Shown one piece after another: positions 14,083-29,411 of a DNA stretch of 64,000 nt. Positions within the stretch are counted from its first letter, which is position 1. The number at the start of each line of letters is the position of its first letter. The DNA comes from Sulfurospirillum sp. (GTDB lineage Bacteria > Campylobacterota > Campylobacteria > Campylobacterales > Sulfurospirillaceae). A model generated the notes under the pieces. It was not told the origin of the DNA and did no database searches. It was given only the letters and a program-made list of their open reading frames with translations. The stretch is from the NCBI GenBank assembly GCA_014859685.1, contig JACUTU010000002.1, forward strand, positions 186,001 to 250,000, given 5' to 3'. The translations under genes and the position numbers were made by a program.

Positions 14083-14391
14083 TATAGCTTATTTTTTTAG
14101 ACGAAGGATAAGAGATGATTGGATCAAATCTAAAATAACTTTATGATAGATGTTACGCATTAAAACGAACGCCACTCGCTTTAGTGGCAGGTGTAAATCT
14201 CTCTACAACCACCCCCCCTAAAAGCTACGAAAAGGGTACTTTTCAAGAAAATTAGAGGTATTTGCAAACTTTTTTACAAAAGTGCGTAAGATCAGTTTAT
14301 AAACAAAAATAATATATTTCTAAGAAACTTTTTGAAATAGTTTAGCTACAATTCATTTGTGACAAAAAAGTTATTTTGATAAAGGAAATCA
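14083..14391. promoter_or_regulatory. Non-coding region with MITE-like copy B and glgP promoter
   Basis: This 309-bp gap contains the 149-bp MITE-like element at 14147-14295. It then has a TACAAT -10-like box at 14347-14352, preceded by GC (extended -10 style), and AAAGGA at 14382-14387 before the glgP ATG. Nothing else is recognised. Confidence 0.55.
14147..14295 (+). repeat. MITE-like element, copy B (149 bp)
   Basis: The left end TAGATGTTACGCAT and right end GTGCGTAAGATCAG form the imperfect inverted repeat. The flanks TTTATGA (14140-14146) and TTTATAA (14296-14302) match at 6 of 7 positions. The interior contains GCTACGAAAAGGGTACTTTTCAAG, an imperfect version of the family hairpin, the conserved AAAATTAGAGGTATTTGCAAA stretch and an extra local hairpin GCCACT-CGCTTT-AGTGGC. 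It is oriented like copy C, opposite to A and D, and lies between the EamA gene and glgP. Confidence 0.78.
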
Positions 14392-16041
14392 ATGCATTTA
14401 CACACTTATGATATTAACAAAAAATTTGCAACAAGTGTTGCTTATTTTTCTATGGAGTTTGCAATAGATCAAGCTTTAAAGATCTACTCTGGCGGTCTTG
14501 GCTTTTTGGCAGGCTCACACATGCGAAGTGCATATGATCGCAAACAAAATGTAATTGGCATTGGGATGTTGTGGAGTTTTGGTTATTATGATCAAGCTAG
14601 ACATGAAGATAGAACGCTCAAACCTGTACATCTTCGTAAATTTTATTATTTTTTGCAAGAGTTAGAACAAAAAGTCACCGTAAAAATTGAAGGTACAGAT
14701 GTAGTGATTAAAGCTTTTTTACTCCATCCAGATACTTTTGGAACAGCTCCTATGATTTTGCTTTCAACCGATGTTGATGAAAATGACCATCTTTCCCGTA
14801 CAATTACTCATAAACTTTATGATGCCAATGCAAGAACAAGAGTGGCACAAGAGATCGTTTTGGGTGTAGGCGGTGTGAAAATTCTTGAAGCAATCAACCA
14901 AAAAATTGATATCTACCATATGAATGAGGGGCATGCAATACCGCTTGTATATGAATTATACGCAAAATTTGGAGACATGAAGAAAGTAAAAGAGCGTGTA
15001 GTTTTTACAACCCATACGCCAGAAGCGGCTGGAAATGAAACCTATGATGCGCGTTTTTTACATCAAATGGGGTTTTTTGGTGAACGATCTTATGATGATG
15101 TGTGTTCGCTTTGTTCCCTTATTGAGGGGGATAGATATAGTCTCACGGTTGAAGCGTTGCGTTGTGCAAAAAGAGCAAATGCTGTTTCTAAGATCCATCA
15201 AATAGTTTCTAATCACATGTGGGAAGGTGTGAGCGATAAATGTGAAATTATAGCAATCACGAATGCACAAAATAAAAAATACTGGTCAGACAAGATACTT
15301 GCAAGAGCGCTTGATGAGCATGAAGACTATGAACTAATCGCACGAAAAAAACATCTCAAAAAGCTTCTTTTTGATGAAGTAGCAGATCAAACTGGAAAAA
15401 TGTTTAATCCTGAAGTATTTACGATAGTTTGGGCAAGAAGATTTGCTGAGTATAAACGACCAGGGCTTTTAAAGTATGATTTTGAACGCTTTGAAAAATT
15501 TGTAAATAATCAAGAGATGCCCGTGCAAATTATTTGGGCTGGTAAACCTTATCCAAAAGATGAAGGCGCTATCGCAATTTTCAATGAACTCATTCGCCTT
15601 AGTCACCTTTATAAAAACATAGCGGTACTGATAGGATATGAATTGAGTCTCTCAAAACTCTTGAAGCAAGGTAGTGATTTGTGGCTCAATACTCCACGAA
15701 TTACTCGAGAAGCAAGCGGTACAAGCGGAATGACTGCGAGTATGAATGGTTCTGTGCATTGCTCAATCAATGATGGATGGCATCCAGAATTTGCCAGAGA
15801 TTGCCGTAATGCTTTTACTATTCCTGAAGTTGATTATACTTTACCAATCGAAGAGCAAGATAGGCTTGATAATAAAAATATGATGTGTATTTTAGAACAA
15901 AAAATATTGCCAATTTACTATAAAGATCCAGATAAATGGACGCAAATTATGAGAAGTGCGATGATGGAGATAGAAGTTGAATTTGATTCAGGTCGCATGG
16001 CAAGAGAATATTACGAGTTGATGTACGATTATACATATTGA
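14392..16041 (+). CDS. glgP: Short GT35 alpha-glucan phosphorylase-like protein lacking the PLP lysine
   Basis: The protein has 549 residues, matching the short archaeal/thermophile-type alpha-glucan phosphorylases rather than the ~800-residue form. Motifs are AYFSMEFAID (residues 17-26), YSGGLGFLAG, YHMNEGHA, FTTHTPEAAGNE, WARRFAEYKRP and, near the C-terminus, EASGTSGM. In GT35 enzymes the residue after that Met is the lysine that binds pyridoxal phosphate (EASGTxxMK); here it is Thr448. Phosphorylases release glucose 1-phosphate from glycogen, but without the lysine this may be inactive or use another chemistry. It opens the alpha-glucan cluster; its TGA coincides with the left flank of MITE-like copy C. 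A TACAAT box and AAAGGA precede it. Confidence 0.82.
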   Translation: MHLHTYDINKKFATSVAYFSMEFAIDQALKIYSGGLGFLAGSHMRSAYDRKQNVIGIGMLWSFGYYDQARHEDRTLKPVHLRKFYYFLQELEQKVTVKIEGTDVVIKAFLLHPDTFGTAPMILLSTDVDENDHLSRTITHKLYDANARTRVAQEIVLGVGGVKILEAINQKIDIYHMNEGHAIPLVYELYAKFGDMKKVKERVVFTTHTPEAAGNETYDARFLHQMGFFGERSYDDVCSLCSLIEGDRYSLTVEALRCAKRANAVSKIHQIVSNHMWEGVSDKCEIIAITNAQNKKYWSDKILARALDEHEDYELIARKKHLKKLLFDEVADQTGKMFNPEVFTIVWARRFAEYKRPGLLKYDFERFEKFVNNQEMPVQIIWAGKPYPKDEGAIAIFNELIRLSHLYKNIAVLIGYELSLSKLLKQGSDLWLNTPRITREASGTSGMTASMNGSVHCSINDGWHPEFARDCRNAFTIPEVDYTLPIEEQDRLDNKNMMCILEQKILPIYYKDPDKWTQIMRSAMMEIEVEFDSGRMAREYYELMYDYTY

Positions 16042-16220: not shown

Positions 16221-16323
16221 AAGGGGGGTAGACAATGAAAACAATACGATGCACAGCATTGTGCTTTAGTCGCGAGGAATTTTTGGTGAGCTTTGCTTGC
16301 CAAAAGGGGGGTAGACAATGAAA
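16221..16323 (+). repeat. Duplicated 20-bp ribosome-binding site and start codon
   Basis: AAGGGGGGTAGACAATGAAA occurs at 16221-16240 and again, identically, at 16304-16323, 83 bp apart. Each copy supplies a purine-rich Shine-Dalgarno-like stretch and an ATG. The second starts the nucleotidyltransferase gene; the first starts a 28-codon leader reading frame. Confidence 0.9.
16235..16321 (+). CDS. Putative 28-aa leader peptide coupled to the next gene
   Basis: ATG at 16235 follows a copy of the same 20-bp start region used by the gene downstream. The frame encodes 28 residues (beginning MKTIRCTALCFSREEF and ending QKGGRQ) and stops with TGA at 16319-16321, overlapping the ATG at 16318 (ATGA). 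This geometry is typical of translational coupling or a regulatory uORF. It could also be an accident of a start-site duplication. No similarity is recognised; it contains three Cys and no signal peptide. Confidence 0.4.
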   Translation: MKTIRCTALCFSREEFLVSFACQKGGRQ

Positions 16324-18822
16324 GCTGTAGTAATGGCAGGGGGGTTTGGTACGCGAATTCAACCTCTCACACACTCAAGACCAAAACCGATGTTGCCAAT
16401 CATGAATAAACCGATGATGGAACACACGATGATGATGCTCAAAAATTTGGGTATCAGCGAGTTCATTGTATTGTTGTATTTTAAGCCCGAAATTATCAAA
16501 GATTACTTCAAGGATGGGAGTGATTTTGGTATCAAGATCACCTATGTTCTTCCTGATGATGATTATGGAACGGCGGGTGCTGTAAAGCTCGCTCAGGAGT
16601 ATATTGGTAATGAAAATTTTATCATTATTAGTGGCGATTTAGTTACTGACTTTGATTTTCAAAAGCTTTTTGATTTTCATGCAAATGCAAATGCAAAACT
16701 TTCCATTGGTCTGACTAGCGTTGAAAATCCACTACAATTTGGTGTGGTTATCGCCAATGAAGACAATGTCATAGAAAAATTTTTAGAAAAACCAAGCTGG
16801 GGAGAAGTCTTTAGCGATACGATCAACACAGGTATCTACATCATCGAGCCAGAAATTTTAGAGTATATTCCAAAAAATGAAAATTATGATTTTGGAAAGG
16901 ATCTTTTTCCAAAACTCATGAAAAATGGTGTGACGCTTATGGGATTTACTTTAAATGGCTATTGGAGGGATGTCGGCAATCCTGAGAGTTATCGCGAAGT
17001 GTATGAAGATATCTTAAATAAGAGAATAAAATTTGACATTGATGGAGAAAAAAGCAAATATCCAGATGGTGTTTTGTACACATCTGAATCCTATAAACTT
17101 GATAAATCGATTGAGATTGTAGGCACGGTTATGCTTGGCAAAAATGTATCGATAGAAAATGGCGTGAGACTCAACAATGTTATTGTTGGTGATAATGTAA
17201 CCATCAAAAAGAATTGTAAATTACGCAATAGTGTTCTATGGGATTATGTTGCTATCGACAAAAATACAACGCTTGATAATAGTGTCATTTGTAACAACAA
17301 TATTATCGGTAAAAATGTCTCAATTAAAGCAGGACTTATTCTTGCGGAGGGTTGTGAGATAGGCGAGCTTGCATCTTTTGAACGGGATGTGACGATCTGG
17401 CCTGATAAGCAAATTCAAGCAGCGTCTATTGTGAGCAATAACATTGTTTTAGGAAGCAGATATAAAAATTCTATATTTGAAAACGGTACGGTTATCGGTA
17501 CGAGCAATATCGAGCTTTCGTGTGAAATGGTAACAAAATTGGGTGAAGCATTTGCAGCACAATTACCGATTGGGACTGTTGTTATCGTGGGTAGAGACGA
17601 GGATAAAAACTCACGAATGCTCAAGCGAGCTTTTTTGGGCGGTTTGTTGAGTGCTGGTATTAATGTGGTTGATATAAAAAATATCCCACAACCTGTTATG
17701 CGTCACACGCTAGCCAACGATGAAACGCTTAACGGAGGCATACATTTTAAAAGATCAGCGATCGATACAACGCATTCTGAGATCACTTTTTTCAATGATC
17801 AAGCTATTCGCATCAACTCTTCGATGGCAAAATCTATAGAAAAAGCTTTTTTTACTGAAAAATTTCGCAGAGTAGATTATAAAAATATCGGTAAAATCTT
17901 TGAATCTCCGGTACAAGCTCAATACAGTGCGTACAAAATGATGATCGAAAAAACACTGGATTATGCGAGCATAAAACACAACAACTTTCGTGTTGCACTT
18001 GATTTAATGCACGGAAGTAGCGGAGAACTTTTGCCAACTATACTCAACGAACTTGGTATAGAAAATGTCATACTCAATACTAATTATGATGAGCAAAAAC
18101 TTTCAAATATGAAGGCTTTACAAAAAAGATCTCAAGAAAATATCGCAAAAATTGTTGTAGCGCTAGGTTATAATCTAGGTGTTGTTATCTATCCAAATAT
18201 ACAAAGAATTACTCTTGTAAGTGACAATGGTGAAGTCCTTGATAAGATCAAAGGCCTTTATAGTGTTTTATGCCTTGTAAACGCTGATGCAAAAGGCAAA
18301 GAGCTACGAAAAGTCTTTTTACCAACTTGGGCTCCTGATATTATTTATTTTGAAAATCTCATTATCGAACGGGGTAAATACGCAGATTTTACACTCGAGC
18401 AACTCAAGCAATATGACCTTATAGCAACGATGGACGGAAATTTTAGCTTTAAAGAGTTTAGCTATACAAGAGATGGACTCTATGCAACACTCAAGATCAT
18501 GCAACTACTGTGTGCGAACAATTTAAAACTTTCAGATGTGGCCAAGGAGATAGATTATTTTTACTATAAAAGTTTTAAGATAGATTGTGTGCAATCGCTC
18601 AAAGGGAAAATGATGCGAAAGTTCCTTGAAAGCGCAAAAAACAAAAAGTCTTCTTTGTTAGATGGCGTAAAAATTTGGGAAAATGAAACAGATTGGATAC
18701 TTATGATTCCAGATCAGTATGGAGATTTTCTAAATATCTACATGCAAGCTAAAAATGATGAAAGTGGAGCATTGCTCTATGAAAAATACACACAAAAAAT
18801 CGAGAAATGGATGAAAGAATAA
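16318..18822 (+). CDS. NTP-transferase / left-handed beta-helix / degenerate phosphomannomutase-like fusion
   Basis: The 834-residue protein has three parts. Residues 1-235 are a nucleotidyltransferase (MAGGFGTRIQPLTHSRPKPM; GYWRDVGNPESY) of the mannose-1-P guanylyltransferase/glucose-1-P uridylyl- or thymidylyltransferase type. Residues ~250-375 are hexapeptide repeats (left-handed beta-helix). Residues ~390-830 have the phosphohexomutase fold. In the last part the active-site TASHNP motif reads KRSAID (Ser480 kept, His-Asn lost) and the metal loop DxDxDR reads YPNIQR (Tyr625, Asn627, Gln629), so mutase activity is very doubtful. It lies between the phosphorylase and GH57 genes, suggesting NDP-glucose supply in the absence of glgC; that is inference. 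Confidence 0.82.
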   Translation: MKAVVMAGGFGTRIQPLTHSRPKPMLPIMNKPMMEHTMMMLKNLGISEFIVLLYFKPEIIKDYFKDGSDFGIKITYVLPDDDYGTAGAVKLAQEYIGNENFIIISGDLVTDFDFQKLFDFHANANAKLSIGLTSVENPLQFGVVIANEDNVIEKFLEKPSWGEVFSDTINTGIYIIEPEILEYIPKNENYDFGKDLFPKLMKNGVTLMGFTLNGYWRDVGNPESYREVYEDILNKRIKFDIDGEKSKYPDGVLYTSESYKLDKSIEIVGTVMLGKNVSIENGVRLNNVIVGDNVTIKKNCKLRNSVLWDYVAIDKNTTLDNSVICNNNIIGKNVSIKAGLILAEGCEIGELASFERDVTIWPDKQIQAASIVSNNIVLGSRYKNSIFENGTVIGTSNIELSCEMVTKLGEAFAAQLPIGTVVIVGRDEDKNSRMLKRAFLGGLLSAGINVVDIKNIPQPVMRHTLANDETLNGGIHFKRSAIDTTHSEITFFNDQAIRINSSMAKSIEKAFFTEKFRRVDYKNIGKIFESPVQAQYSAYKMMIEKTLDYASIKHNNFRVALDLMHGSSGELLPTILNELGIENVILNTNYDEQKLSNMKALQKRSQENIAKIVVALGYNLGVVIYPNIQRITLVSDNGEVLDKIKGLYSVLCLVNADAKGKELRKVFLPTWAPDIIYFENLIIERGKYADFTLEQLKQYDLIATMDGNFSFKEFSYTRDGLYATLKIMQLLCANNLKLSDVAKEIDYFYYKSFKIDCVQSLKGKMMRKFLESAKNKKSSLLDGVKIWENETDWILMIPDQYGDFLNIYMQAKNDESGALLYEKYTQKIEKWMKE

Positions 18823-18826
18823 AAAT

Positions 18827-20848
18827 ATGAAACTCAACTTCTTGTGGCATATGCATCAGCCCGATTACCGTGATGCAAGTGGAATTATGCAGATGCCATG
18901 GGTTTTTTTACATGCTATCAAAGATTATTATGATATGCCGTGGATGGTGGCTCAAGTAGATGGCATCAAGGCTACTTTTAACATTACGCCTCCTTTGATA
19001 ACACAACTCGAACTCTATTACGAACATTCTCATACAAAGGATAAGTTTTTGAGTTTGTGGTATGCAAACCCTACACAACTTCAAGAAGATGATCGCAATT
19101 GGTTGATTAAGATTTGTAAAACTCCCCAATACGAACGGATGATAAATCCTCTTCCTCGATTTGTGCAATTGCACGCAATGGAGCATTACAATAACGCTGA
19201 ACTTATCGAACTTGAAGTGCTTTTTATGCTCGCATGGTGTGGAACATATCTCAAAACACAAAATCCAACCATCAAAGCATTGATCCAAAAAACATCGGGG
19301 TTTACTCAAGAAGATAAGATCGTTTTACTTTTAGAATTAGAACAGTTTGTTTCAAAGATTTTTGCATACTACAAAGAGTTACATGTAAAGGGTATTGTAG
19401 CACTTGCAACAACACCTCTCAATCATCCGATTTTGCCACTTTTGCTTGATATGAACAACGCCATTGCGGCAAATCCATCGACAAATATCCCCACACAGCA
19501 CATCTGTTTGAGAGATGATGCACTCATGCAGGTGCAAAAAGCACAAGAGCTTTTTGTAGAAAAATTTGGATTTAAGGCGCGTGGATTTTGGCCAGCAGAG
19601 GGAGCTGTGGATGTAAAAAGTGCAGAGATATTTCGTTCAAGCAATCTTGAATGGATAGCAACAGATGAGGCAATACTCTTAAAGTCCTTACATGTAAACG
19701 ATAAAAATCATATCTATGTTCCTTATGATTTTAATGGCTTAAAGATCTATTTTCGTGACCACTATTTGAGTGATTTGATAGGTTTTGAATACCGATATAA
19801 AAACGAGCAAACTGCCGCTGATGACTTTGTGTCCCGGCTACAACGCATACAAGATACAAATCCGCAAGCATTAGTTTCGGTGATACTTGATGGTGAAAAT
19901 GCGTGGGAATTCTACGAACAAAATGCCTATAAGTTTTTTATGGCACTGTATACTTCTTTGCAAAAACTTTCTTGGTGTGAGTTGATTACGATGGATGAAG
20001 CCCTTTCTTTACCTGCTACAAAACTCGATACTTTAGCCTCTGGAAGTTGGATTCATGGTGAATTTAACACTTGGGTTGGACACAAGGAAAAAACGCGTGC
20101 TTGGGAGTTATTGTTTGTTGCTAAAAAGGATTATGAATACCATAAAAATGATTTGGATGAAAAAACTATCCAGCAGATTACGCATCATTTTTTAGCCGCA
20201 GAATGTTCTGATTGGTTTTGGTGGTATGGAGATGATCATTTTAGTGACTTTAGCACAGAATTTGACGCCCTTTTTCGCTCACATCTCATCGATATCTATC
20301 TGCTTATGCAAGTAACGCCGCCAGCCGATTTTTTCATACCAATTGCTAAAAACAAAAGTGTGCAAAATTTTTGGATCCAACCACAATCAGACATCAGCCC
20401 TCGAATAGATGGCAAACGCGATTCTTTTTTTGAGTGGATTGGATGTGGCGTTGTTGATGAAAGTCGGATATTTTCCACGATGGATAAAGTGAGAGGTCCA
20501 GTAAAGCGAATTTTGTACGGACAAGATGCGCAAAAAATCTACTTTGCATTTGAACCAGATGGCGGCGATCAATGCTTCGCTAGTGCCATCAATATTTTTA
20601 TAGAACCAGAACAAATTCAAGGCACAATTTACCTTGATAAGCAAGATATTCGTGTCGATAATCTTACAATTCACACTACATGTAAGGAGTGTTTGGAGTT
20701 TAGCATAGAAAAAACAAAGCTAGATTCTTCTGAGATATCTATCCGTTTTGAAGTGCTAAAAAATGGCCAAATTATCCAAACACTACCAGGATTTGGCATA
20801 TTAAAAATAACACTCAATGATGATTATAGTCATAATTGGTTTGTATAA
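18827..20848 (+). CDS. Glycoside hydrolase family 57 protein (alpha-glucan acting)
   Basis: The 673-residue protein starts MKLNFLWHMHQPDY, the GH57 motif 1. GFWPAEG carries the predicted nucleophile Glu258 and VILDGENAWE the predicted acid/base Asp355. The GH57 catalytic barrel covers about residues 1-400. The C-terminal ~200 residues are a beta-rich extension with IFIEPEQI and KITLNDDYSHNW. GH57 enzymes include amylases, 4-alpha-glucanotransferases, amylopullulanases and branching enzymes; the exact activity cannot be read here. There is no signal peptide, so it acts on intracellular glucan. It lies 4 bp after the preceding gene and 12 bp before the second GH57 gene, clearly one operon. Confidence 0.88.
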   Translation: MKLNFLWHMHQPDYRDASGIMQMPWVFLHAIKDYYDMPWMVAQVDGIKATFNITPPLITQLELYYEHSHTKDKFLSLWYANPTQLQEDDRNWLIKICKTPQYERMINPLPRFVQLHAMEHYNNAELIELEVLFMLAWCGTYLKTQNPTIKALIQKTSGFTQEDKIVLLLELEQFVSKIFAYYKELHVKGIVALATTPLNHPILPLLLDMNNAIAANPSTNIPTQHICLRDDALMQVQKAQELFVEKFGFKARGFWPAEGAVDVKSAEIFRSSNLEWIATDEAILLKSLHVNDKNHIYVPYDFNGLKIYFRDHYLSDLIGFEYRYKNEQTAADDFVSRLQRIQDTNPQALVSVILDGENAWEFYEQNAYKFFMALYTSLQKLSWCELITMDEALSLPATKLDTLASGSWIHGEFNTWVGHKEKTRAWELLFVAKKDYEYHKNDLDEKTIQQITHHFLAAECSDWFWWYGDDHFSDFSTEFDALFRSHLIDIYLLMQVTPPADFFIPIAKNKSVQNFWIQPQSDISPRIDGKRDSFFEWIGCGVVDESRIFSTMDKVRGPVKRILYGQDAQKIYFAFEPDGGDQCFASAINIFIEPEQIQGTIYLDKQDIRVDNLTIHTTCKECLEFSIEKTKLDSSEISIRFEVLKNGQIIQTLPGFGILKITLNDDYSHNWFV

Positions 20849-20860
20849 AGGATCTCAATA

Positions 20861-22858
20861 ATGTCACAAAGCGTCTCTTTTCTTTTTGGTATCCACATGC
20901 ACCAACCAGTGGACAATTTTTCCTTTTGCATAAAAGAAGCGGTGCAAAAAAGTTATCTGCCATTTTTTGAAACGGCAGCAAAGTATCCTGCATTTAAATT
21001 TGCCGTGCATTCTAGCGGCTGGCTACTTGAGCAGATTGAAACAAATTATCCTGATCTTTTTGCACTTATGCGAAAGCTTACGCAAGAAGGATCCATCGAG
21101 TGGTTTAGTGCTGGATTTTATGAGCCAGTTTTGAGCTGTATTCCATCAAAAGACAGAAGAGGACAGATCAAAAAACTCAACACTTTTTTGCATTCACGAT
21201 TTGGTGTGCAAGCACAAGGTTTATGGTTGAGCGAACGAGTTTGGGAGAGTGCTATCATCCCTGATCTTGCTACATGTGGCATCAAATACAGTGTAGTTGA
21301 TGATTATCACTTTTTAAGTAGCTCATTTGCAAACGATAAGCTTGATGGTTATTATCTTAGTGAGGAAGGCGGTGATGAAAATGCTCTCTTTCCAATTTCA
21401 AAAAAACTTCGCTATGTGTTGCCTTTTGCAAGTGTCGATAAAGCAATCGAAACTATTTTAAGTTACGCATGTGCAGATGATGCAGCGGCTATCTTTTTTG
21501 ATGATGCTGAAAAGTTTGGTTTGTGGCCAAATACTTATGATTGGGTCTATAATCAAGGTTGGCTTGAGCAATTTATCGCACGAGTTGTAAGCGATGAGCG
21601 AATACTCTCCACACATTATGGCACATTTTTTCAAAACCATCGCCCCAAAGGGTTGGCATATCTCAACAACACTTCTTATATCGAAATGGGCGAATGGAGT
21701 TTGGCAGCAAGTAAAGCAAAAGCATTTAAAGAACTCAAGCAACAAGTGGGTGAGAAATATTTTGAAGAGTGTGGCATAAGTTTTATCAAAGGCGGGATTT
21801 GGAAAAATTTCTTTATCAAATACGCTGAAAGCAATTATCTGCACAAAAGAATGCTAAACCTAAGCGGCAAACAAAAATTATTTTCAAAACAACAAAAAGA
21901 GCATTTGTATAAGTTGCAAACCAATGATGTTTTTTGGCATGGCGTTTTTGGAGGCATATATCTGCCAAATCTACGAGACAATGCTTACCGTTATCTGCTT
22001 GCTATTGAAAAAGAGTTAGATGATGCAAAAATGCAAGTGTTCGATATAGATAAAGATGGCTATGATGAACTCAAAATCAAAACAAACGACCTTTCATTTG
22101 TTTTTTCAAGTCGGTATGGTGGACAAATGATGGAATTTGGTTCTTTTGAAACACTTTTTAATTGGCAAAATACGATGCGAAGGACACAAGAGATTTACCA
22201 TCTTTTTGATGAGAAACATGATCAAAAAGAGGAAATCGATTCTATACATGATGGTGTAAAAATGGATGAGGATTTGCGGAGTGAACTTCGTTTTGATATT
22301 TCTCCTCGTTATTCATTTATCGATCATTTCAGCGATGAAACGATTACGCTTGTGCGTTTAAGTGAGCTTGATTTTAGAGAAATTGGCGATTTTGCAGACC
22401 AGTCTTTTGTGCTTGATGGTGCAAAATGCTCGTTTTCTAAGAAAGGATTTTTACAAGGAAATTTTGAGAGCTTTTTGCAAAAAACTTACCACTGTAAGGG
22501 AAAAAGCCTCAAGCTTGATATTGCATTTGAAACAGCGATGCAATCAACATTTTTTTATACAAATGAACTTAATTTGCATTTTGCACATATGCAAGATATT
22601 CGCATCAATGATCAATTGCTAATTGATGGTTTGAGCTTGCAAGCGTGTAGCGAGATACGCATATGTGACGATTTTACACAAAAAATGTTAGTGCTAAAAA
22701 CACAAATACCATGTGATTTTAATGCTTGTATCATCCATACTATCGCAAAAAGTGAGCGAGGTTTTGAGAAAACACCACAGCATATTGCATGTACTCTTGG
22801 CTTTACATGTAGCCCATCATTTCACACACAAATCACACTAGAGATGCAAGATGTCTGA
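20861..22858 (+). CDS. GH57 4-alpha-glucanotransferase / alpha-amylase-like enzyme
   Basis: The 665-residue protein starts with FLFGIHMHQPVDNF. LWLSERVWE places the nucleophile at Glu125 and FFDDAEKFGLWP the acid/base at Asp214/215. These sit almost exactly where Thermococcus litoralis 4-alpha-glucanotransferase has them (Glu123, Asp214), and the length (659) is close. The C-terminal half resembles the DUF1925/DUF1926 beta-domains of that enzyme. It would rearrange or trim maltodextrins from glycogen in the cytoplasm. It is less like the GH57 upstream, so the two are not recent duplicates. Its stop overlaps the start of galT by 8 bp. Confidence 0.88.
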   Translation: MSQSVSFLFGIHMHQPVDNFSFCIKEAVQKSYLPFFETAAKYPAFKFAVHSSGWLLEQIETNYPDLFALMRKLTQEGSIEWFSAGFYEPVLSCIPSKDRRGQIKKLNTFLHSRFGVQAQGLWLSERVWESAIIPDLATCGIKYSVVDDYHFLSSSFANDKLDGYYLSEEGGDENALFPISKKLRYVLPFASVDKAIETILSYACADDAAAIFFDDAEKFGLWPNTYDWVYNQGWLEQFIARVVSDERILSTHYGTFFQNHRPKGLAYLNNTSYIEMGEWSLAASKAKAFKELKQQVGEKYFEECGISFIKGGIWKNFFIKYAESNYLHKRMLNLSGKQKLFSKQQKEHLYKLQTNDVFWHGVFGGIYLPNLRDNAYRYLLAIEKELDDAKMQVFDIDKDGYDELKIKTNDLSFVFSSRYGGQMMEFGSFETLFNWQNTMRRTQEIYHLFDEKHDQKEEIDSIHDGVKMDEDLRSELRFDISPRYSFIDHFSDETITLVRLSELDFREIGDFADQSFVLDGAKCSFSKKGFLQGNFESFLQKTYHCKGKSLKLDIAFETAMQSTFFYTNELNLHFAHMQDIRINDQLLIDGLSLQACSEIRICDDFTQKMLVLKTQIPCDFNACIIHTIAKSERGFEKTPQHIACTLGFTCSPSFHTQITLEMQDV

Positions 22859-23873
22859 GATACGATATGATAAGATTCATAACCAGCATGTCCTTATTGC
22901 ACCAGAGAGACTCTATAGACCAAATATAGATTTTCAGAAAAAAAAGATTGTTACTAATCTAAAAAGATGCCCATTTTGTGAGGGCAATGAACATTTGACG
23001 CCTGCTGAAGTGTTTGCGATACGAGACAATAGTGCCAATACGCAAGGCTGGAAAACAAGAGTTGTGCCAAATCTCTACAAAGCAGTGCAAATAGAACTTG
23101 ATGGCGCTTCAAGACGAAATGGGATTTTTGAAGCTCGTGATGGCTTAGGTGCGCATGAAATCTTAATTGATTCGCCAAAACATAGTTGCGGTTTTGAGTC
23201 TCTCGGCGTTGCAGGGATAGAAAATTGGTTGCGTTCAATCATCATCAGAGTAGAAGATTTACAAAAAGATGGCAGGCTTATCTATGTAAGTGTTTTTAAA
23301 AATGTCGGAGAAAGAGCAGGAGCCACGCAAGAACACCCGCATACACAAATTTTAGCACTCCCGATGATGCCCAAAAATGAACTTGTTTTTTTGCAAAGAA
23401 ATGCTGATTATTACCGCTTGCATGGTCGAGGAATTCTTGAAGATGTTTTGCACAATGAATTGTTTTTTGAGAAAAGAATTCTCACTAGTGTGGGGGATTT
23501 TGTTGCTTTTTGTCCTTATGCAAGTGCTTTTTCTTTTGAAGTGATGATAGTTCCTACGCAAAATTTAAAGCATATTTTTAAATGTTCTAGAAAACAAGTG
23601 AATGATTTTGCTATTTTGCTAGAAAAAGTTTTTAGTATGCTAGCGCAGCAATTAGGAGTGTTTGATTATAATCTTGCTTTCTCTTTTGCTCCTTTAAATA
23701 GCAACTTTGAAAATGAAATTTTTATGCCCAATATAAACAAAAATTATCGTTTTAGTCTGCGTATCATTCCACGCATTTATACACTCGGAGGCTTTGAATT
23801 AGCTAGCGGAATGTTTATAAATTGTGTGAGTCCAGAAGAGAGCGCGAAGTTACTTCGAGGAGACAAGTCGTGA
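22851..23873 (+). CDS. galT: GalT-family hexose-1-phosphate uridylyl/nucleotidyltransferase
   Basis: The 340-residue HIT-superfamily protein has the metal-binding RCPFCEGNEHLTP, the catalytic EHPHTQILALP (His-x-His) and a C-terminal region with NKNYRFSLRIIPR. GalT moves UMP between UDP-glucose and galactose 1-phosphate; relatives act on ADP- or GDP-sugars. In this cluster, without other galactose genes except the distant galE, it may recycle sugar nucleotides for glucan synthesis. It starts inside the GH57 gene (ATG 22851) and its TGA overlaps the GTG of glgA (GTGA), so it is translationally embedded in the operon. Confidence 0.88.
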   Translation: MSEIRYDKIHNQHVLIAPERLYRPNIDFQKKKIVTNLKRCPFCEGNEHLTPAEVFAIRDNSANTQGWKTRVVPNLYKAVQIELDGASRRNGIFEARDGLGAHEILIDSPKHSCGFESLGVAGIENWLRSIIIRVEDLQKDGRLIYVSVFKNVGERAGATQEHPHTQILALPMMPKNELVFLQRNADYYRLHGRGILEDVLHNELFFEKRILTSVGDFVAFCPYASAFSFEVMIVPTQNLKHIFKCSRKQVNDFAILLEKVFSMLAQQLGVFDYNLAFSFAPLNSNFENEIFMPNINKNYRFSLRIIPRIYTLGGFELASGMFINCVSPEESAKLLRGDKS

Positions 23874-25237
23874 AAGTGTTATTTTGTGCTAGCGAAATCT
23901 ATCCTTACGCCAAAACAGGTGGGCTTGGAGATGTCGGCGATGCATTACCAAAAAGTTTGCAAAAATACGCAGATGTAGCAGTAGCAATGCCTATGTATAG
24001 TTTTATCTCTTCTGATGATTTGCAAGTTTTTGCAAGTTTTTCATTGCAGATGGGCGGTATAGACTATGAGATTGAGATTTATAATACACAAAATTATTAC
24101 TTCATCAAAGCACCGTTGCTGAGTAGCACTGAAAATCTCTACGGTAATGCCCTCGGTGATTATGCTTCCAACGATATCCGCTTTGGTTTGTTTGCAAAAG
24201 CAATCGTTGAACTTTGCACATTGATGAGTGTTGATATCTTACATGTAAATGATTGGCATAGTGCTTTAGCCCCACTTTTTATCAAAGAAAAAGGCTTACA
24301 TGTAAAGAGTGTCTTGACGATTCATAACCTTGCATATCAAGGTATTTTTTCAAAAGAATCATTGCAAAGACTTGGGCTTGATAATAGCTATTTTCGTATG
24401 GAAGCGTTAGAGTTTTATGGCAAAATAAATTTTCTCAAAGCGGGCATTGCATTTTGTGATGCACTCACAACCGTGAGTCCAAGTTATGCACAAGAGATTC
24501 TCACGCCAGCTTTTGGGTGTGGGCTTGATGGTTTTTTACAGGCACACAAATATAAATTACACGGTATTTTAAATGGTATCAATGCAGATTTTTTTGATCC
24601 AAAAACAGATAGTTTTTTAGCTTATAATTATGATGCAAATCATCTTGAAGACAAACGCAAAAACAAGGTTGCATTCTTAAAAAAAATCAAACTCAAAGAT
24701 CCGAGAAAACCTCTTTTTATAGTGCTTTCTCGTTTAGTGCCACAAAAAGGAATTGATCTCATTTGCAAAGCACTTCCAGAAATTTTAGCGCATAAAATCA
24801 ATCTTTACATCCTTGGAGATGGCGAGGGTGATATGATTTCACAACTCACACAAGCTGCTTTGCGGTATGAAAATTTTGTATTTGAAAATTGTTATGATGA
24901 AAGCCTTTCGCATCAAGCCTATGCGGCGGCCGATTTTGTATTGATGCCCTCTTTGTTTGAGCCCTGTGGACTTGTGCAAATGATTGCTATGCGTTACGGT
25001 GTTATCCCTATCGTTTTTGCAACCGGAGGATTGAGGGATAGCGTTTTTGAGGATCAAGATAAGTGCGGCAGAGGCGTTGTATTTACCAAATACTCCAAAA
25101 AGCAGTTTCTTTTAGCTTTGCAAAGAGCACTTTTGTTGCAAAAAGATGATGCTCTCAAAAAAGCCAATATGGCGTGTGATTTTTCATTTCAAAAGAGTGC
25201 AAAAGCATACTTTGAAATTTATAAGGCACTCGTGTGA
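23870..25237 (+). CDS. glgA: Glycogen/starch synthase, paralog 1
   Basis: The 455-residue GT5 enzyme starts (GTG 23870) VKVLFCASEIYPYAKTGGLGDVGDALP, with the KTGGL sugar-nucleotide motif. HVNDWHSAL and the C-terminal MPSLFEPCGLVQMIAMRYG follow, with the E-x7-E-type catalytic region. It extends alpha-1,4-glucan from ADP- or UDP-glucose. GAGGAGA at 23857-23863 and GTGA overlap with galT decide the start; the frame extends back to 23822 but would give a basic non-homologous leader. It is clearly diverged from the second glgA (26057-27502): VQMIAMRYG here against NQIYSLRYG there, so substrate or role may differ. Confidence 0.93.
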   Translation: MKVLFCASEIYPYAKTGGLGDVGDALPKSLQKYADVAVAMPMYSFISSDDLQVFASFSLQMGGIDYEIEIYNTQNYYFIKAPLLSSTENLYGNALGDYASNDIRFGLFAKAIVELCTLMSVDILHVNDWHSALAPLFIKEKGLHVKSVLTIHNLAYQGIFSKESLQRLGLDNSYFRMEALEFYGKINFLKAGIAFCDALTTVSPSYAQEILTPAFGCGLDGFLQAHKYKLHGILNGINADFFDPKTDSFLAYNYDANHLEDKRKNKVAFLKKIKLKDPRKPLFIVLSRLVPQKGIDLICKALPEILAHKINLYILGDGEGDMISQLTQAALRYENFVFENCYDESLSHQAYAAADFVLMPSLFEPCGLVQMIAMRYGVIPIVFATGGLRDSVFEDQDKCGRGVVFTKYSKKQFLLALQRALLLQKDDALKKANMACDFSFQKSAKAYFEIYKALV

Positions 25238-26055
25238 AACTATGTATCGATGCTGGAGGAACTTATTTTCGTTATGAACTTTATGAAAATAACCAGCAAA
25301 TTGGTGCAAAAAGTGAAAAAAATGAGGGCGTTGGAATCTGTTTTTGGATCGAAAATATCCTTCAACAATATCCGAAAATCCAAATTATCGCCGTAGGTTA
25401 TGCCGGTCAAGTAAAAGATGGAATTATCCTCGCTTCCCCAAATATAACAATCGATAAAGCAAATATAAAAAGCTATTTTGAACAGAAGTATGGGGTGAAA
25501 TTTTTTATACAAAATGATCTCGAATGTGCCGTGCTAGCTGAAGCAAATTTTCATAAAAGCCCTGATATCTGTGCCTTATATCTAGGCAGTGGCATGGGAC
25601 TTGGCGTTATTAGTGGTGGCAAGCTTTTGCAAGGATTTGGCGGTGTTGCTACTGAAATTGGTCATATTCCTTATAAAAAAAGCCCCTTTACATGTGGCTG
25701 TGGCAGAGATAATTGCATCGAACTTTTTGCTTCAGGCATTGGACTTTTGGGATTTAAAAAATATTTGAGTCTTGATGCAAATCTTACTTTGGAGCAGTTG
25801 CGAGTAGCTCAAAGTTCATTGTATACACAGTTTGAAGAGGCACTTTTGTATGCGGTTGGAACTGTGATCACACTTTTTAATCCGCAGATTTTAGTTCTAG
25901 GTGGCGGTATTTTTGCAAGTGACAGTGAACTTTTTGCAATAGTATCGGAAAAATACGCAAATTTTACCTTGCTAGTGAGTGCAAAACAAGTTACAATCAA
26001 AAAAACACAGATACAAAATGCCGTCTTATCGGGTACGAGATTATTGGGAGTTTAA
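25234..26055 (+). CDS. ROK-family glucokinase
   Basis: The 273-residue ROK sugar kinase has N-terminal phosphate loop CIDAGGTYFRYELYE, IQNDLECAVLAEA with the catalytic Asp, GSGMGLGVISGGKL, and the ROK zinc motif EIGHIP...CGCGRDNCIELFASG. It would phosphorylate glucose released by the GH57 enzymes to glucose 6-phosphate. The GTG start at 25234 overlaps the glgA TGA (GTGA). The next gene, the second glgA, follows after one base (ATG 26057). Confidence 0.88.
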   Translation: MKLCIDAGGTYFRYELYENNQQIGAKSEKNEGVGICFWIENILQQYPKIQIIAVGYAGQVKDGIILASPNITIDKANIKSYFEQKYGVKFFIQNDLECAVLAEANFHKSPDICALYLGSGMGLGVISGGKLLQGFGGVATEIGHIPYKKSPFTCGCGRDNCIELFASGIGLLGFKKYLSLDANLTLEQLRVAQSSLYTQFEEALLYAVGTVITLFNPQILVLGGGIFASDSELFAIVSEKYANFTLLVSAKQVTIKKTQIQNAVLSGTRLLGV

Positions 26056-26056
26056 A

Positions 26057-27502
26057 ATGCAAGAAAAATTAAAGATAGCTTTCATAGCTTCAGAGGTTGT
26101 GCCATTTGCTAAAACAGGTGGGCTTGCTGATGTGGCAGGAGCTTTACCAAAAGCGCTTAAAAAATTGGGGCATGAGATTATTGTGATTATGCCACGGTAT
26201 TATAAGATAGACAAGACACAACTTACAAAATTACCTGAACCTCTTGGTGTGCCGATGGGATCTATGGGTGAGCTTTGGGCGGCAGTTTATACTACGATGT
26301 TACCAAATAGCACAGTGCGTATTTATTTTATAGATTATGAACAGTATTTTGGCAGAAGTGGATTGTATGAGGAAAACAATATCTCTTTTGCAGACAATGG
26401 TGAACGGTTTGTTTTTTTTACAAAAGCGGCGATGCAACTTTGTAAAATGCTCTCTTTTGTGCCTGATATTTTTCACGCAAATGATTGGCATAGCGCAAGC
26501 GTTGCGATACTTGCAAAAACTAGATTTGTACATGATTTTGCACACGCAAAAACAGTTTTGACGATCCACAATATGCAGCATCAAGGTATTTTTCATAAAG
26601 GTTTGATGAATTTACTTGAGATAGGTTGGGAGCATTTTAATTCTTGCGAGTTTGAAAGTATGGGTGGACTCAATATGCTCAAAGGTGGCATCATGCACGC
26701 TGATGCTGTAACGACGGTCTCGAGTGGCTATGCAGCAGAAATTCAAACACCAGATTTTGGCTTTGGACTCGATGGACATCTTAGAGCGCATAGCCAAAAA
26801 ATATATGGCATTTTAAATGGTGTTGATTATGACGAATGGAATCCATCAAAAGATAAATATATCGCGAAAAATTTTGATGTGGATGCTATGAAGGGTAAAA
26901 ATGTGTGCAAGCGAGCATTGCAAAAACATTTTGGACTCAAACAAAAATACGGCGTACCTGTTATCGGATTTGTGGGCAGATTTGCAGAGCAAAAAGGCAT
27001 AGGACTTATCGCCTCGGTTATATCTGGCTTGCTAGATATGGATGTGCAGATTGTGATGCTAGGTGCTGGAGAAAAATGGGCCGAAGGATTTTTCTCACAC
27101 GAGGCATATCATCGAGAAAATTTTGGTTTACATGTAGGTTATAGCGAGGAATTGGCACATCAGATAGAAGCTGGTTGTGATCTGTTTTTGATGCCATCTC
27201 TCTTTGAGCCATGTGGACTCAATCAAATCTATAGTTTGCGTTATGGTACGCTACCGATCGTGCGTGCAACGGGTGGGCTTGATGATACGATAGAAAACTA
27301 TGATGCAAAAAACAATAGCGGCAATGGCTTTAAGTTTTATGAAGCTTCAAGTGATGCGCTGTACCATACTGTAAAATGGGCTTTAGATTTGTATTTTGGC
27401 GATAAAGAAGCATTTGAGCAGTTACGCACTCGTGCGATGCGTGCACATTTTAGCTGGGAAGATGCGGCGAAAAATTATGTGGAGGTGTATCGTGGCATAT
27501 GA
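26057..27502 (+). CDS. glgA: Glycogen/starch synthase, paralog 2
   Basis: The 481-residue GT5 glucan synthase starts KIAFIASEVVPFAKTGGLADVAGALP, the standard GlgA N-terminus. Further motifs are HANDWHSASVA, GGLNMLKGGI, GILNGVDYDEW, and MPSLFEPCGLNQIYSLRYG, which is closer to canonical GlgA than paralog 1. It transfers glucose from ADP-glucose to the growing chain. TGGGAG at 26045-26050 supports ATG 26057; an upstream in-frame ATG at 25979 lies inside the ROK gene and is rejected. Its last codons overlap the start of glgB. Confidence 0.94.
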   Translation: MQEKLKIAFIASEVVPFAKTGGLADVAGALPKALKKLGHEIIVIMPRYYKIDKTQLTKLPEPLGVPMGSMGELWAAVYTTMLPNSTVRIYFIDYEQYFGRSGLYEENNISFADNGERFVFFTKAAMQLCKMLSFVPDIFHANDWHSASVAILAKTRFVHDFAHAKTVLTIHNMQHQGIFHKGLMNLLEIGWEHFNSCEFESMGGLNMLKGGIMHADAVTTVSSGYAAEIQTPDFGFGLDGHLRAHSQKIYGILNGVDYDEWNPSKDKYIAKNFDVDAMKGKNVCKRALQKHFGLKQKYGVPVIGFVGRFAEQKGIGLIASVISGLLDMDVQIVMLGAGEKWAEGFFSHEAYHRENFGLHVGYSEELAHQIEAGCDLFLMPSLFEPCGLNQIYSLRYGTLPIVRATGGLDDTIENYDAKNNSGNGFKFYEASSDALYHTVKWALDLYFGDKEAFEQLRTRAMRAHFSWEDAAKNYVEVYRGI

Positions 27503-29411
27503 AATGTTACAAGGCGTAACGCTTTTTAGTGAGTTTGATATCTATCTTTTTAAGCAAGGTGTTCATTATAAACTTTACGAAAAACTAGGCGCTCACCTAC
27601 ATGTAAGCGATGGAAGAAGTGGCGTGTATTTTGCTACTTGGGCGCCAAATGCTACTAGTGTTTCGGTAATCGCAGATTTTAACCATTTTGATATTTCAGC
27701 TCATCCTTTGCAAAAAAGAGCAGATGATTCGGGTATTTGGGAGGGATTTGTATGCGATGTAAACGCGGGCGCGGTTTATAAATACTTTATCGATTCACCC
27801 AATCCGCACACTTCAAAACAAAAAGCTGATCCGTACGCATTTTTTGCAGAAGTTGCACCAAATTCTGGCTCACGCGTTTGGGATGTGCAAAATTATGCGT
27901 GGAATGATGCTAGTTGGATGAAAAATCGCAAAAAAAATAATTCACACAAAAGTCCTATCAGTATTTATGAGGTGCATCTAGGCTCTTGGCGAAGAAAAGT
28001 AGAAGAGAATAATCGGTTTTTAAATTATATTGAAATAGCGTATGAATTAAGTAGCTACGCAAAAGAGATGGGCTTCACACATGTAGAGCTTTTACCGATC
28101 ACGGAGTATCCATTTGAAGGCTCATGGGGATATCAAACAACGGGATATTTTGCACCAACCGCTCGTTATGGAACGGCTGAGCAGATGCAAGAATTTATTG
28201 ATATTTTGCACCAAAATGGCATCGGCGTTATACTTGATTGGGTGCCGTCGCATTTTGTAACTGACGGGCATGGTTTAAGCAATTTTGATGGCAGTTGCTT
28301 ATATGAACATAAAGATCCTAAAAGGGGTTATCACCCGCAGTGGAAAAGTGCAATTTTTAATTATGATCGCAATGAAGTGCGGGCATTTTTGATAAATTCT
28401 GCACTATTTTGGCTTGAGATGTATCATTTTGATGGTATTCGTGTGGACGCTGTTGCTTCTATGCTGTATCTTGATTATGCGAGAGAAGAGGGTGAATGGA
28501 TACCAAATGAAGATGGCAGCAATGTAAACCGCGGTGCTGTACAATTTCTCAAAGAACTCAATAGTGCTGCTTATGGGGTACATAAAGATATCATAATGTT
28601 TGCTGAAGAATCCACAAACTATTCGATGGTAACCCGACTCGTAAGCGATGGCGGACTTGGATTTGGCTACAAATGGAATATGGGCTGGATGCACGACATA
28701 CTCAAATATATGAAACAAGAGCCTATCGCAAGACAACACCACCATGATGATTTAACCTTTAGCTTTGTTTACATGTACAATGAAAATTACATCTTACCAC
28801 TTAGCCATGATGAAGTGGTGCATATGAAAGGCTCTCTTATCGGCAAAATGCCAGGTGATTATGCGAAAAAATTTGCAAATTTGCGTGCAATGTTTGCTTT
28901 GATGTTTGCACATCCTGGGAAAAAACTGTTGTTTATGGGTGCAGAATTTGCTCAATTTGCAGAGTGGGCGTATGATCGAAGCCTTGATTGGCATTTGCTT
29001 GATTATGAGAGCCACAAAGGGGTGCAAAAGTGCATACAAACACTTAACCACATGTATGCAAATGAGCCTTGTTTGCACAAAAACGATGTCCTTAGTAGCG
29101 GCTTTGAGTGGATTCATGAAAATGACTGTAACGCCAATGTTATCTCATTTATCAGAAAAGGCACAACCAAAGACAAACCCCTCATCGTAGTGTGTAATTT
29201 TGCAGACAAAGAGCATATCGGCTACGAATTAGGACTGCCAACCAAAGGTGAATATAAAGAGATTTTTAATTCCCAATCAACTCAATTTGGCGGGTATGTA
29301 GCTATAAGCCAAGATCCCATAAAAACCCAAAACCAACCCTGCCACGGTCGCAAAAATATGCTCAAATGCAACTTGCCAGCCTTAAGCGTAGTGTATTTGA
29401 AAAAGATTTGA
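27492..29411 (+). CDS. glgB: 1,4-alpha-glucan branching enzyme (GH13)
   Basis: The 639-residue protein has an N-terminal CBM48 domain (YFATWAPNATSVSVIADFN) and a GH13 catalytic barrel. The motifs are DWVPSHF, DGIRVDAVASML (nucleophile Asp), AEEST (acid/base Glu) and LSHDEVV. GlgB cuts alpha-1,4 chains and makes alpha-1,6 branches in glycogen. GTG 27492 is chosen as start because GGAGGTG lies at 27481-27487. The start overlaps the glgA stop by 11 bp. It is the last gene of the alpha-glucan operon; no terminator hairpin is evident in the 200 bp after it. Confidence 0.96.
   Translation: MAYEMLQGVTLFSEFDIYLFKQGVHYKLYEKLGAHLHVSDGRSGVYFATWAPNATSVSVIADFNHFDISAHPLQKRADDSGIWEGFVCDVNAGAVYKYFIDSPNPHTSKQKADPYAFFAEVAPNSGSRVWDVQNYAWNDASWMKNRKKNNSHKSPISIYEVHLGSWRRKVEENNRFLNYIEIAYELSSYAKEMGFTHVELLPITEYPFEGSWGYQTTGYFAPTARYGTAEQMQEFIDILHQNGIGVILDWVPSHFVTDGHGLSNFDGSCLYEHKDPKRGYHPQWKSAIFNYDRNEVRAFLINSALFWLEMYHFDGIRVDAVASMLYLDYAREEGEWIPNEDGSNVNRGAVQFLKELNSAAYGVHKDIIMFAEESTNYSMVTRLVSDGGLGFGYKWNMGWMHDILKYMKQEPIARQHHHDDLTFSFVYMYNENYILPLSHDEVVHMKGSLIGKMPGDYAKKFANLRAMFALMFAHPGKKLLFMGAEFAQFAEWAYDRSLDWHLLDYESHKGVQKCIQTLNHMYANEPCLHKNDVLSSGFEWIHENDCNANVISFIRKGTTKDKPLIVVCNFADKEHIGYELGLPTKGEYKEIFNSQSTQFGGYVAISQDPIKTQNQPCHGRKNMLKCNLPALSVVYLKKI

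Follow-up and report, generated by a model that had tools for sequence, protein, structure and literature searches.

A clade of glycogen phosphorylase-like GT35 proteins without the PLP lysine, with a candidate replacement anchor at Lys425

Introduction

A GT35-like protein encoded in a glycogen cluster of Sulfurospirillum has threonine at the position of the lysine that binds PLP, and it belongs to a clade, termed here T35, in which this lysine is missing throughout. T35 is very probably an active enzyme, and there is a slightly better than even chance that it fills the role of a phosphorylase. The preferred reading, held tentatively, is that of an active enzyme in the phosphorylase role with a rebuilt cofactor pocket, where PLP has perhaps moved to another lysine, Lys425.

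Glycogen phosphorylase is the standard example of an enzyme that employs PLP for the phosphate of this cofactor. A clade that spans three phyla, lacks the PLP lysine and seems to take the phosphorylase's place implies that the cofactor anchor can move, or that PLP is dispensable, or that the reaction is misnamed in many annotations. No description of a GT35 clade of this kind was found in the search listings and passages that made up the literature searched.

The gene and codon 448

The open reading frame (positions 14392..16041, + strand) lies in the window, the whole 64-kb stretch of DNA that was analysed. It starts with ATG, has 549 codons and is preceded by AAAGGA (14381..14386, +), read directly 5 bases 5' of the ATG and a likely ribosome-binding site. 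In profile searches the 549 aa protein exceeds the cut-offs of TIGR02094 (420 bits, cut-off 191.7) and PF00343 (42.5 bits, cut-off 27), but with the classical phosphorylase profile TIGR02093 it gives 37 bits against a cut-off of 553. Profile libraries label T35 proteins phosphorylases by score alone.

Residues 440-448 read EASGTSGMT. The stretch aligns letter for letter with EASGTSGEK of the Segatella copri phosphorylase, a solved structure (9l6i), and this fixes the register. Codons 440-445 (EASGTS; 15709..15726, +) represent, by homology, the glucose and cofactor-phosphate loop. In phosphorylases the Glu of EASGT is followed, eight residues on, by the Schiff-base lysine, and T35 has Thr448 there, encoded by ACT (15733..15735, +; alignment to 9l6i). 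Register and codon thus bear out the earlier note, which had claimed that threonine replaces the Schiff-base lysine while other GT35 motifs are intact. As lysine is encoded by AAA or AAG, a single read error would not account for Thr448. T35 is filed under TIGR02094 by sequence and fold and not as a PLP-dependent phosphorylase, because the defining lysine of that family was looked for and not found.

Residue 448 across relatives

How widespread is the replacement? T35 denotes GT35-like proteins with Thr, Ser or Ala at position 448, K35 the short-type proteins with Lys and GP the classical ones. The first motif pass covered 80 related loci taken from genomes, and further loci were added afterwards. 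A regex search of the 80 loci gave 77 motif matches of the T35 protein (T 65, S 11, A 1) and one extra match (R), which is an unrelated frame. HMM extraction yielded 160 distinct GT35-like proteins; 107 are T35 with a residue other than Lys at 448 (T 82, S 23, A 2), and the remaining 53, which are 51 short-type K35 and two classical GP, all have Lys. A later separate sample has Thr or Ser in 28/28 T35 and Lys in 6/6 short Lys-types, so that the two samples combined show Lys at 448 in 59/59 GT35 proteins outside T35.

Alignment with the short GT35 clade, proposed earlier as a check, therefore finds the non-Lys state (Thr, Ser or Ala) conserved in all 107 T35, and Thr448 is not a chance mutation. 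The earlier statement that active GT35 enzymes always have Lys at this position holds outside the clade (59/59) and fails inside it (T/S/A in 107/107, T/S in 28/28).

T35 members occur in Campylobacterota, Bacteroidota and Verrucomicrobiota. In a tree of 68 rows a single branch (SH-aLRT 100) separates them from all the rest; the residue state changes once, and the stem is long (1.96 changes per column).

Two trivial causes were considered and rejected. A sequencing error or pseudogene is ruled out by the clade-wide non-Lys state together with a constraint equal to that on K35 (below). Short length as the cause of lysine loss is ruled out by six relatives of 578-641 aa that keep Lys, and also by L173 (614 aa) and L174 (569 aa). 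Seven of these eight short (569-641 aa) Lys-keeping relatives (L227-L232, L173, L174) were placed in the GP-rooted tree, where they form a clade of their own.

Active site residues

Potato phosphorylase contacts glucose through Asn561, Tyr651, Arg647, Glu754, Ala755, Ser756 and Gly757 and binds PLP by Lys762 (passages of PMC11465516). By motif register these contacts map to N291, Y354, R350, E440, A441, S442 and G443 of T35, and Lys762 maps to T448. The codon of Asn291, a glucose contact by homology, is at 15262..15264 (+), and codons 350-355, which include Arg350, Tyr354 and Lys355 and represent glucose and phosphate contacts by homology, are at 15439..15456 (+), both placed by alignment. All 107 T35 proteins keep N291, R350, Y354, K355, E440, A441, S442, G443, T444, S445, G446, H208 and W298; R349 is present in 106/107, Y416 in 101/107 and G34/G35 in 105/107, where the two exceptions are rows cut short. 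Glucose and phosphate residues that were checked are thus kept in 105-107 of 107.

Seven genomes carry both genes, and over their 21 genome pairs the mean identity between genomes is 70.9% for T35 and 67.8% for K35; T35 and K35 of one genome are 30-34% identical. The kept active site and a constraint equal to that on K35 speak for an enzyme and not a relic, as far as conservation can indicate this. Could T35 have lost catalysis and serve only to bind glucan or to regulate? It has lost a residue that is essential in classical enzymes, and it coexists with K35 in 12 of the 35 Campylobacterota T35 genomes. But the checked residues are conserved under the same constraint as in the Lys-bearing paralogue, and T35 is the sole GT35 in most Bacteroidota and Verrucomicrobiota carriers, among the matches listed. 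A dead protein is therefore very improbable, and the suggestion in the earlier note of a mere binding protein is not upheld.

A candidate anchor in an altered pocket

Seven lysines are at least 90% conserved in T35, and one of these, Lys425 (codon at 15664..15666, +; placed by alignment), sets the clade apart. It is present in 107/107 T35 and 0/53 Lys-types, and in 28/28 and 0/6 (short Lys-types), respectively, in the later sample. Overall this is 135/135 T35 and 0/59 Lys-types, and Lys at 425 and Lys at 448 are mutually exclusive. Column 425 is mostly hydrophobic in Lys-types, so that a buried lysine beside the vacated site is a natural reading of Lys425 as a candidate replacement anchor. Glu417 (15640..15642, +) and Ser421 (15652..15654, +), also located by alignment, are invariant in the 107 T35 and different in K35. 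Gln293, Pro386 and Gly415 are likewise changed in T35.

An AlphaFold2 model of T35 has a pLDDT of 90.5 and a pTM of 0.90, with lower values, about 77-81, for residues 431-450. The model shows residues 417, 421 and 425 spaced by roughly one turn each, from the beginning of helix 418-427 onwards along its length. By the usual Rossmann order this helix would adjoin helix 444-450, which carries Thr448.

In the proposed mechanism, T35 would perform alpha-glucan glucosyl transfer and take over from glycogen phosphorylase when glycogen is mobilised. Most likely it would still split glucan with phosphate and still use PLP. The anchoring lysine would have moved, in that Lys448 became Thr, Ser or Ala and a new invariant lysine, Lys425, arose on the neighbouring helix, from where it would point into that same cavity, sharing its helix face with Glu417 and Ser421. 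That PLP is in fact held by Lys425 is possible but doubtful. The changes at Glu417, Ser421, Gln293, Pro386 and Gly415 exceed the needs of a simple lysine move, and they count against the preferred reading. The earlier note had foreseen that a conserved lysine elsewhere might fill the pocket and overturn its view; Lys425, invariant only in T35, is a real candidate for this on sequence conservation.

Might a phosphorylase do without a covalent anchor? PLP could be bound non-covalently, or T35 could be PLP-free with Pi alone being enough. The presence pattern among genomes and the kept phosphate-site residues fit such an enzyme as they fit the preferred reading, but it leaves unexplained a Lys425 that is invariant only in T35. 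Moreover, the phosphorylase mechanism given in passages of a review (PMC11046441) has the PLP phosphate as the proton source for Pi. This alternative is considered quite improbable.

Likeness to NDP-sugar enzymes

The main rival to the preferred reading holds that T35 is an NDP-glucose-dependent alpha-glucan glucosyltransferase, with a nucleoside in place of pyridoxal. The diphosphate would sit where the PLP phosphate and Pi sit in phosphorylases, and Glu417 would hold the ribose. The classical Schiff-base lysine is missing clade-wide while other GT35 motifs are intact, which leaves room for a transferase with another donor.

The T35 model has the phosphorylase fold, as it matches the short phosphorylase 9l6i with Z 34.5 (rmsd 2.2, 535 aligned) and the Escherichia coli maltodextrin phosphorylase 1qm5 with Z 32.5 (rmsd 2.4, 535 aligned). 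It also matches the ADP-bound glycogen synthase of E. coli, 2qzs, nearly as well (Z 31.8, rmsd 3.1, 440 aligned). These fold-search rows serve for rank order, and the absence of a family from them does not exclude that family. The 1qm5 and 2qzs matches are tied, and thus the fold cannot tell phosphate from nucleotide chemistry.

Sequence comparisons with GT5 are mixed. The equivalent of position 448 in 28 GT5 NDP-sugar enzymes is Y (16) or I (12) and never Lys. Median bits with the GT5 profile are 23.0 for T35, 5.7 for K35 and -1.7 for GP, and Gly415 of T35 is GT5-like (24/28 GT5). However, profile-profile scores to GT5 are equal for T35 and K35 (83 and 86), and of the 49 columns that differ between the two, 12 have the T35 residue as the GT5 majority and 8 the K35 residue, which is scarcely a preference. 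R349, T444, S445 and G446 of the cofactor loop stay GT35-like. A GT5-like T35 sequence was thus rejected as a decisive test, since the HMM bits lean that way and the column matches and profile-profile scores do not. T35 is not a GT5 glycogen synthase (GlgA) by profile, with 37.2 bits against the TIGR02095 cut-off of 328, and a relationship to GT3 glycogen synthase is rejected, as PF05693 gave no match to T35 at E up to 0.001.

Genomic context also bears on this rival. The adjoining gene is a nucleotidyltransferase fusion; but two GlgA genes are already present in the host, and T35 presence tracks the absence of a degrading enzyme (among the matches listed). Passages of a Chem Rev review (PMC11046441) suggest that, at the origin of GT35, the nucleoside monophosphate of an NDP-sugar enzyme gave way to PLP, an ancestry that would suit the rival. 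On the whole, NDP-glucose dependence is judged unlikely.

Did T35 return to the NDP-sugar state proposed for the origin of GT35, or could it be a survivor of it? Rooting leaves both. With GT5 as outgroup, T35 groups with K35 (support 80/88); placing T35 first among the GT35 branches costs 2.7 log units (p-AU 0.207) and T35 with GP has a p-AU of 0.27, the rooting of T35 in these trees being affected by long branches meeting. In the GP-rooted tree, T35 is sister to all short Lys-types (85/62). That T35 is a PLP-free NDP-sugar enzyme which split off before PLP capture, a living form of the proposed proto-GT35, is improbable. One purified T35 protein would make it possible to test directly whether GT-B transferases passed between NDP-sugar and PLP chemistry, as has been proposed.

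T35 and phosphorylases across genomes

Of 100 Campylobacterota, 35 carry T35, 30 have GlgB over cut-off and 28 have the two together. K35 is found in 13 genomes, 12 of them T35 carriers, and GP in two, both likewise with T35. The 198 Bacteroidota comprise, among the matches listed, 24 with T35, 109 with K35, 37 with classical GP only and 28 with none. Glycogen-making Bacteroidota were defined by the presence of glgC (415 bits or more) or GT3; among the matches listed, K35 or GP occurs in 0/21 of those with T35 vs 72/87 of those without (Fisher p 4.5e-13, from counts that ignore shared descent). The 115 Verrucomicrobiota show the same, with K35 or GP in 0/15 T35 carriers vs 98/100 others, again among the matches listed and with shared descent ignored.

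In the sampled Bacteroidota and Verrucomicrobiota genomes, T35 thus behaves like a phosphorylase substitute, among the matches listed and with shared descent ignored. A phosphorylase is not obligatory, as 15 of the 87 T35-less glycogen-making Bacteroidota have no GT35 at all among the matches listed. Nor is T35 always a replacement, since K35 (12) or GP (2) stands alongside it in 14/35 Campylobacterota T35 genomes, and two of the 21 T35 carriers among genomes G100-G120 (reached via Bacteroidota and Verrucomicrobiota loci), G103 and G106, have classical GP too. The possibility of a non-phosphorolytic glucan enzyme, raised in the earlier note, loses ground through the occupation of the phosphorylase's place (0/21 and 0/15 with K35 or GP, among the matches listed).

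The glycogen cluster and gene neighbourhoods

In the window, T35 opens a glycogen cluster in which all genes are on the + strand and were assigned by profile searches. A nucleotidyltransferase-phosphoglucomutase-like fusion of 834 aa (16318..18822) is followed by two GH57 proteins (18827..20848, and 20861..22858, the latter of the alpha-amylase/4-alpha-glucanotransferase type), a GalT-like uridylyltransferase (22851..23873), a first glycogen synthase GlgA of GT5 (23822..25237), a glucokinase-like sugar kinase of the ROK family (25234..26055), a second GlgA of GT5 (25979..27502) and the branching enzyme GlgB (27396..29411). The two GlgA copies are divergent and flank the ROK kinase within this one cluster, with the GalT-like gene just upstream. 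The search of the Sulfurospirillum genome found no TIGR02094 gene other than T35.

GlgC over cut-off was found in 0/31 Campylobacterota genomes searched. All 31 have a frame of 829-874 aa (114-148 bits) like the nucleotidyltransferase-phosphoglucomutase fusion, which may supply NDP-glucose for GlgA.

Neighbours of T35 at other loci are catabolic: pgm and pgi (read from sequence), PFK, PGK and the ROK kinase. The gene order at locus L096 is K35, phosphoglucomutase, glucose-6-phosphate isomerase, T35 and the fusion (the two middle names being read from sequence). At locus L205, in a genome without T35 (G075), K35 occupies the T35 slot of an otherwise similar glycogen cluster. No constant T35 partner was found in the clustered Bacteroidota and Verrucomicrobiota loci, except that T35 is followed by a GT4-like gene in L047, L049 and L052.

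The ROK kinase is directly upstream of T35 in L027, L040 and L211, and the two form one open frame in L105 (1420-4008, +; 863 aa) and L106 (2109-4670, -; 854 aa). Such an arrangement would suit an enzyme that frees glucose from glucan, by hydrolysis or by transfer to water or a sugar, for the kinase to phosphorylate. The phosphate-binding Arg350 and Lys355, however, would be needless in a hydrolase and are kept in 107/107, and glucose release seems a remote prospect.

Two observations concern Bacteroidota glycogen synthases. A eukaryote-type GT3 synthase (PF05693 over cut-off) is present in 6/198, all of them T35 carriers (G175, G198, G272, G292, G312 and G316). Frames of about 270-305 aa, for example in G100-G108, G111-G116 and G118, match GlgA over no more than its N-terminal half (TIGR02095 about 2-220).

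Comparison with known systems

A lysine that changes its place has a parallel in the WNK kinases, where the conserved catalytic lysine has moved to another element with fold and function unchanged. Their fold is unrelated to that of T35, and in T35 the move is a proposal.

The ADP-glucose glycogen synthase GlgA (GT5) has, like T35, a GT-B fold and a residue other than Lys at the position equivalent to 448, but its cofactor-loop letters are absent from T35. Classical glycogen and maltodextrin phosphorylases (GT35, PF00343, TIGR02093) have the fold and catalytic residues of T35, which differs from them in having no PLP lysine. The short-type alpha-glucan phosphorylases (TIGR02094, e.g. 9l6i) have in common with T35 the fold, the glucose and phosphate residues and the EASGTSG loop. 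T35, at about 550 aa as against about 700-900 for most of them, is without their N-terminal part and their Schiff-base lysine, and has instead the invariant Lys425, Glu417 and Ser421.
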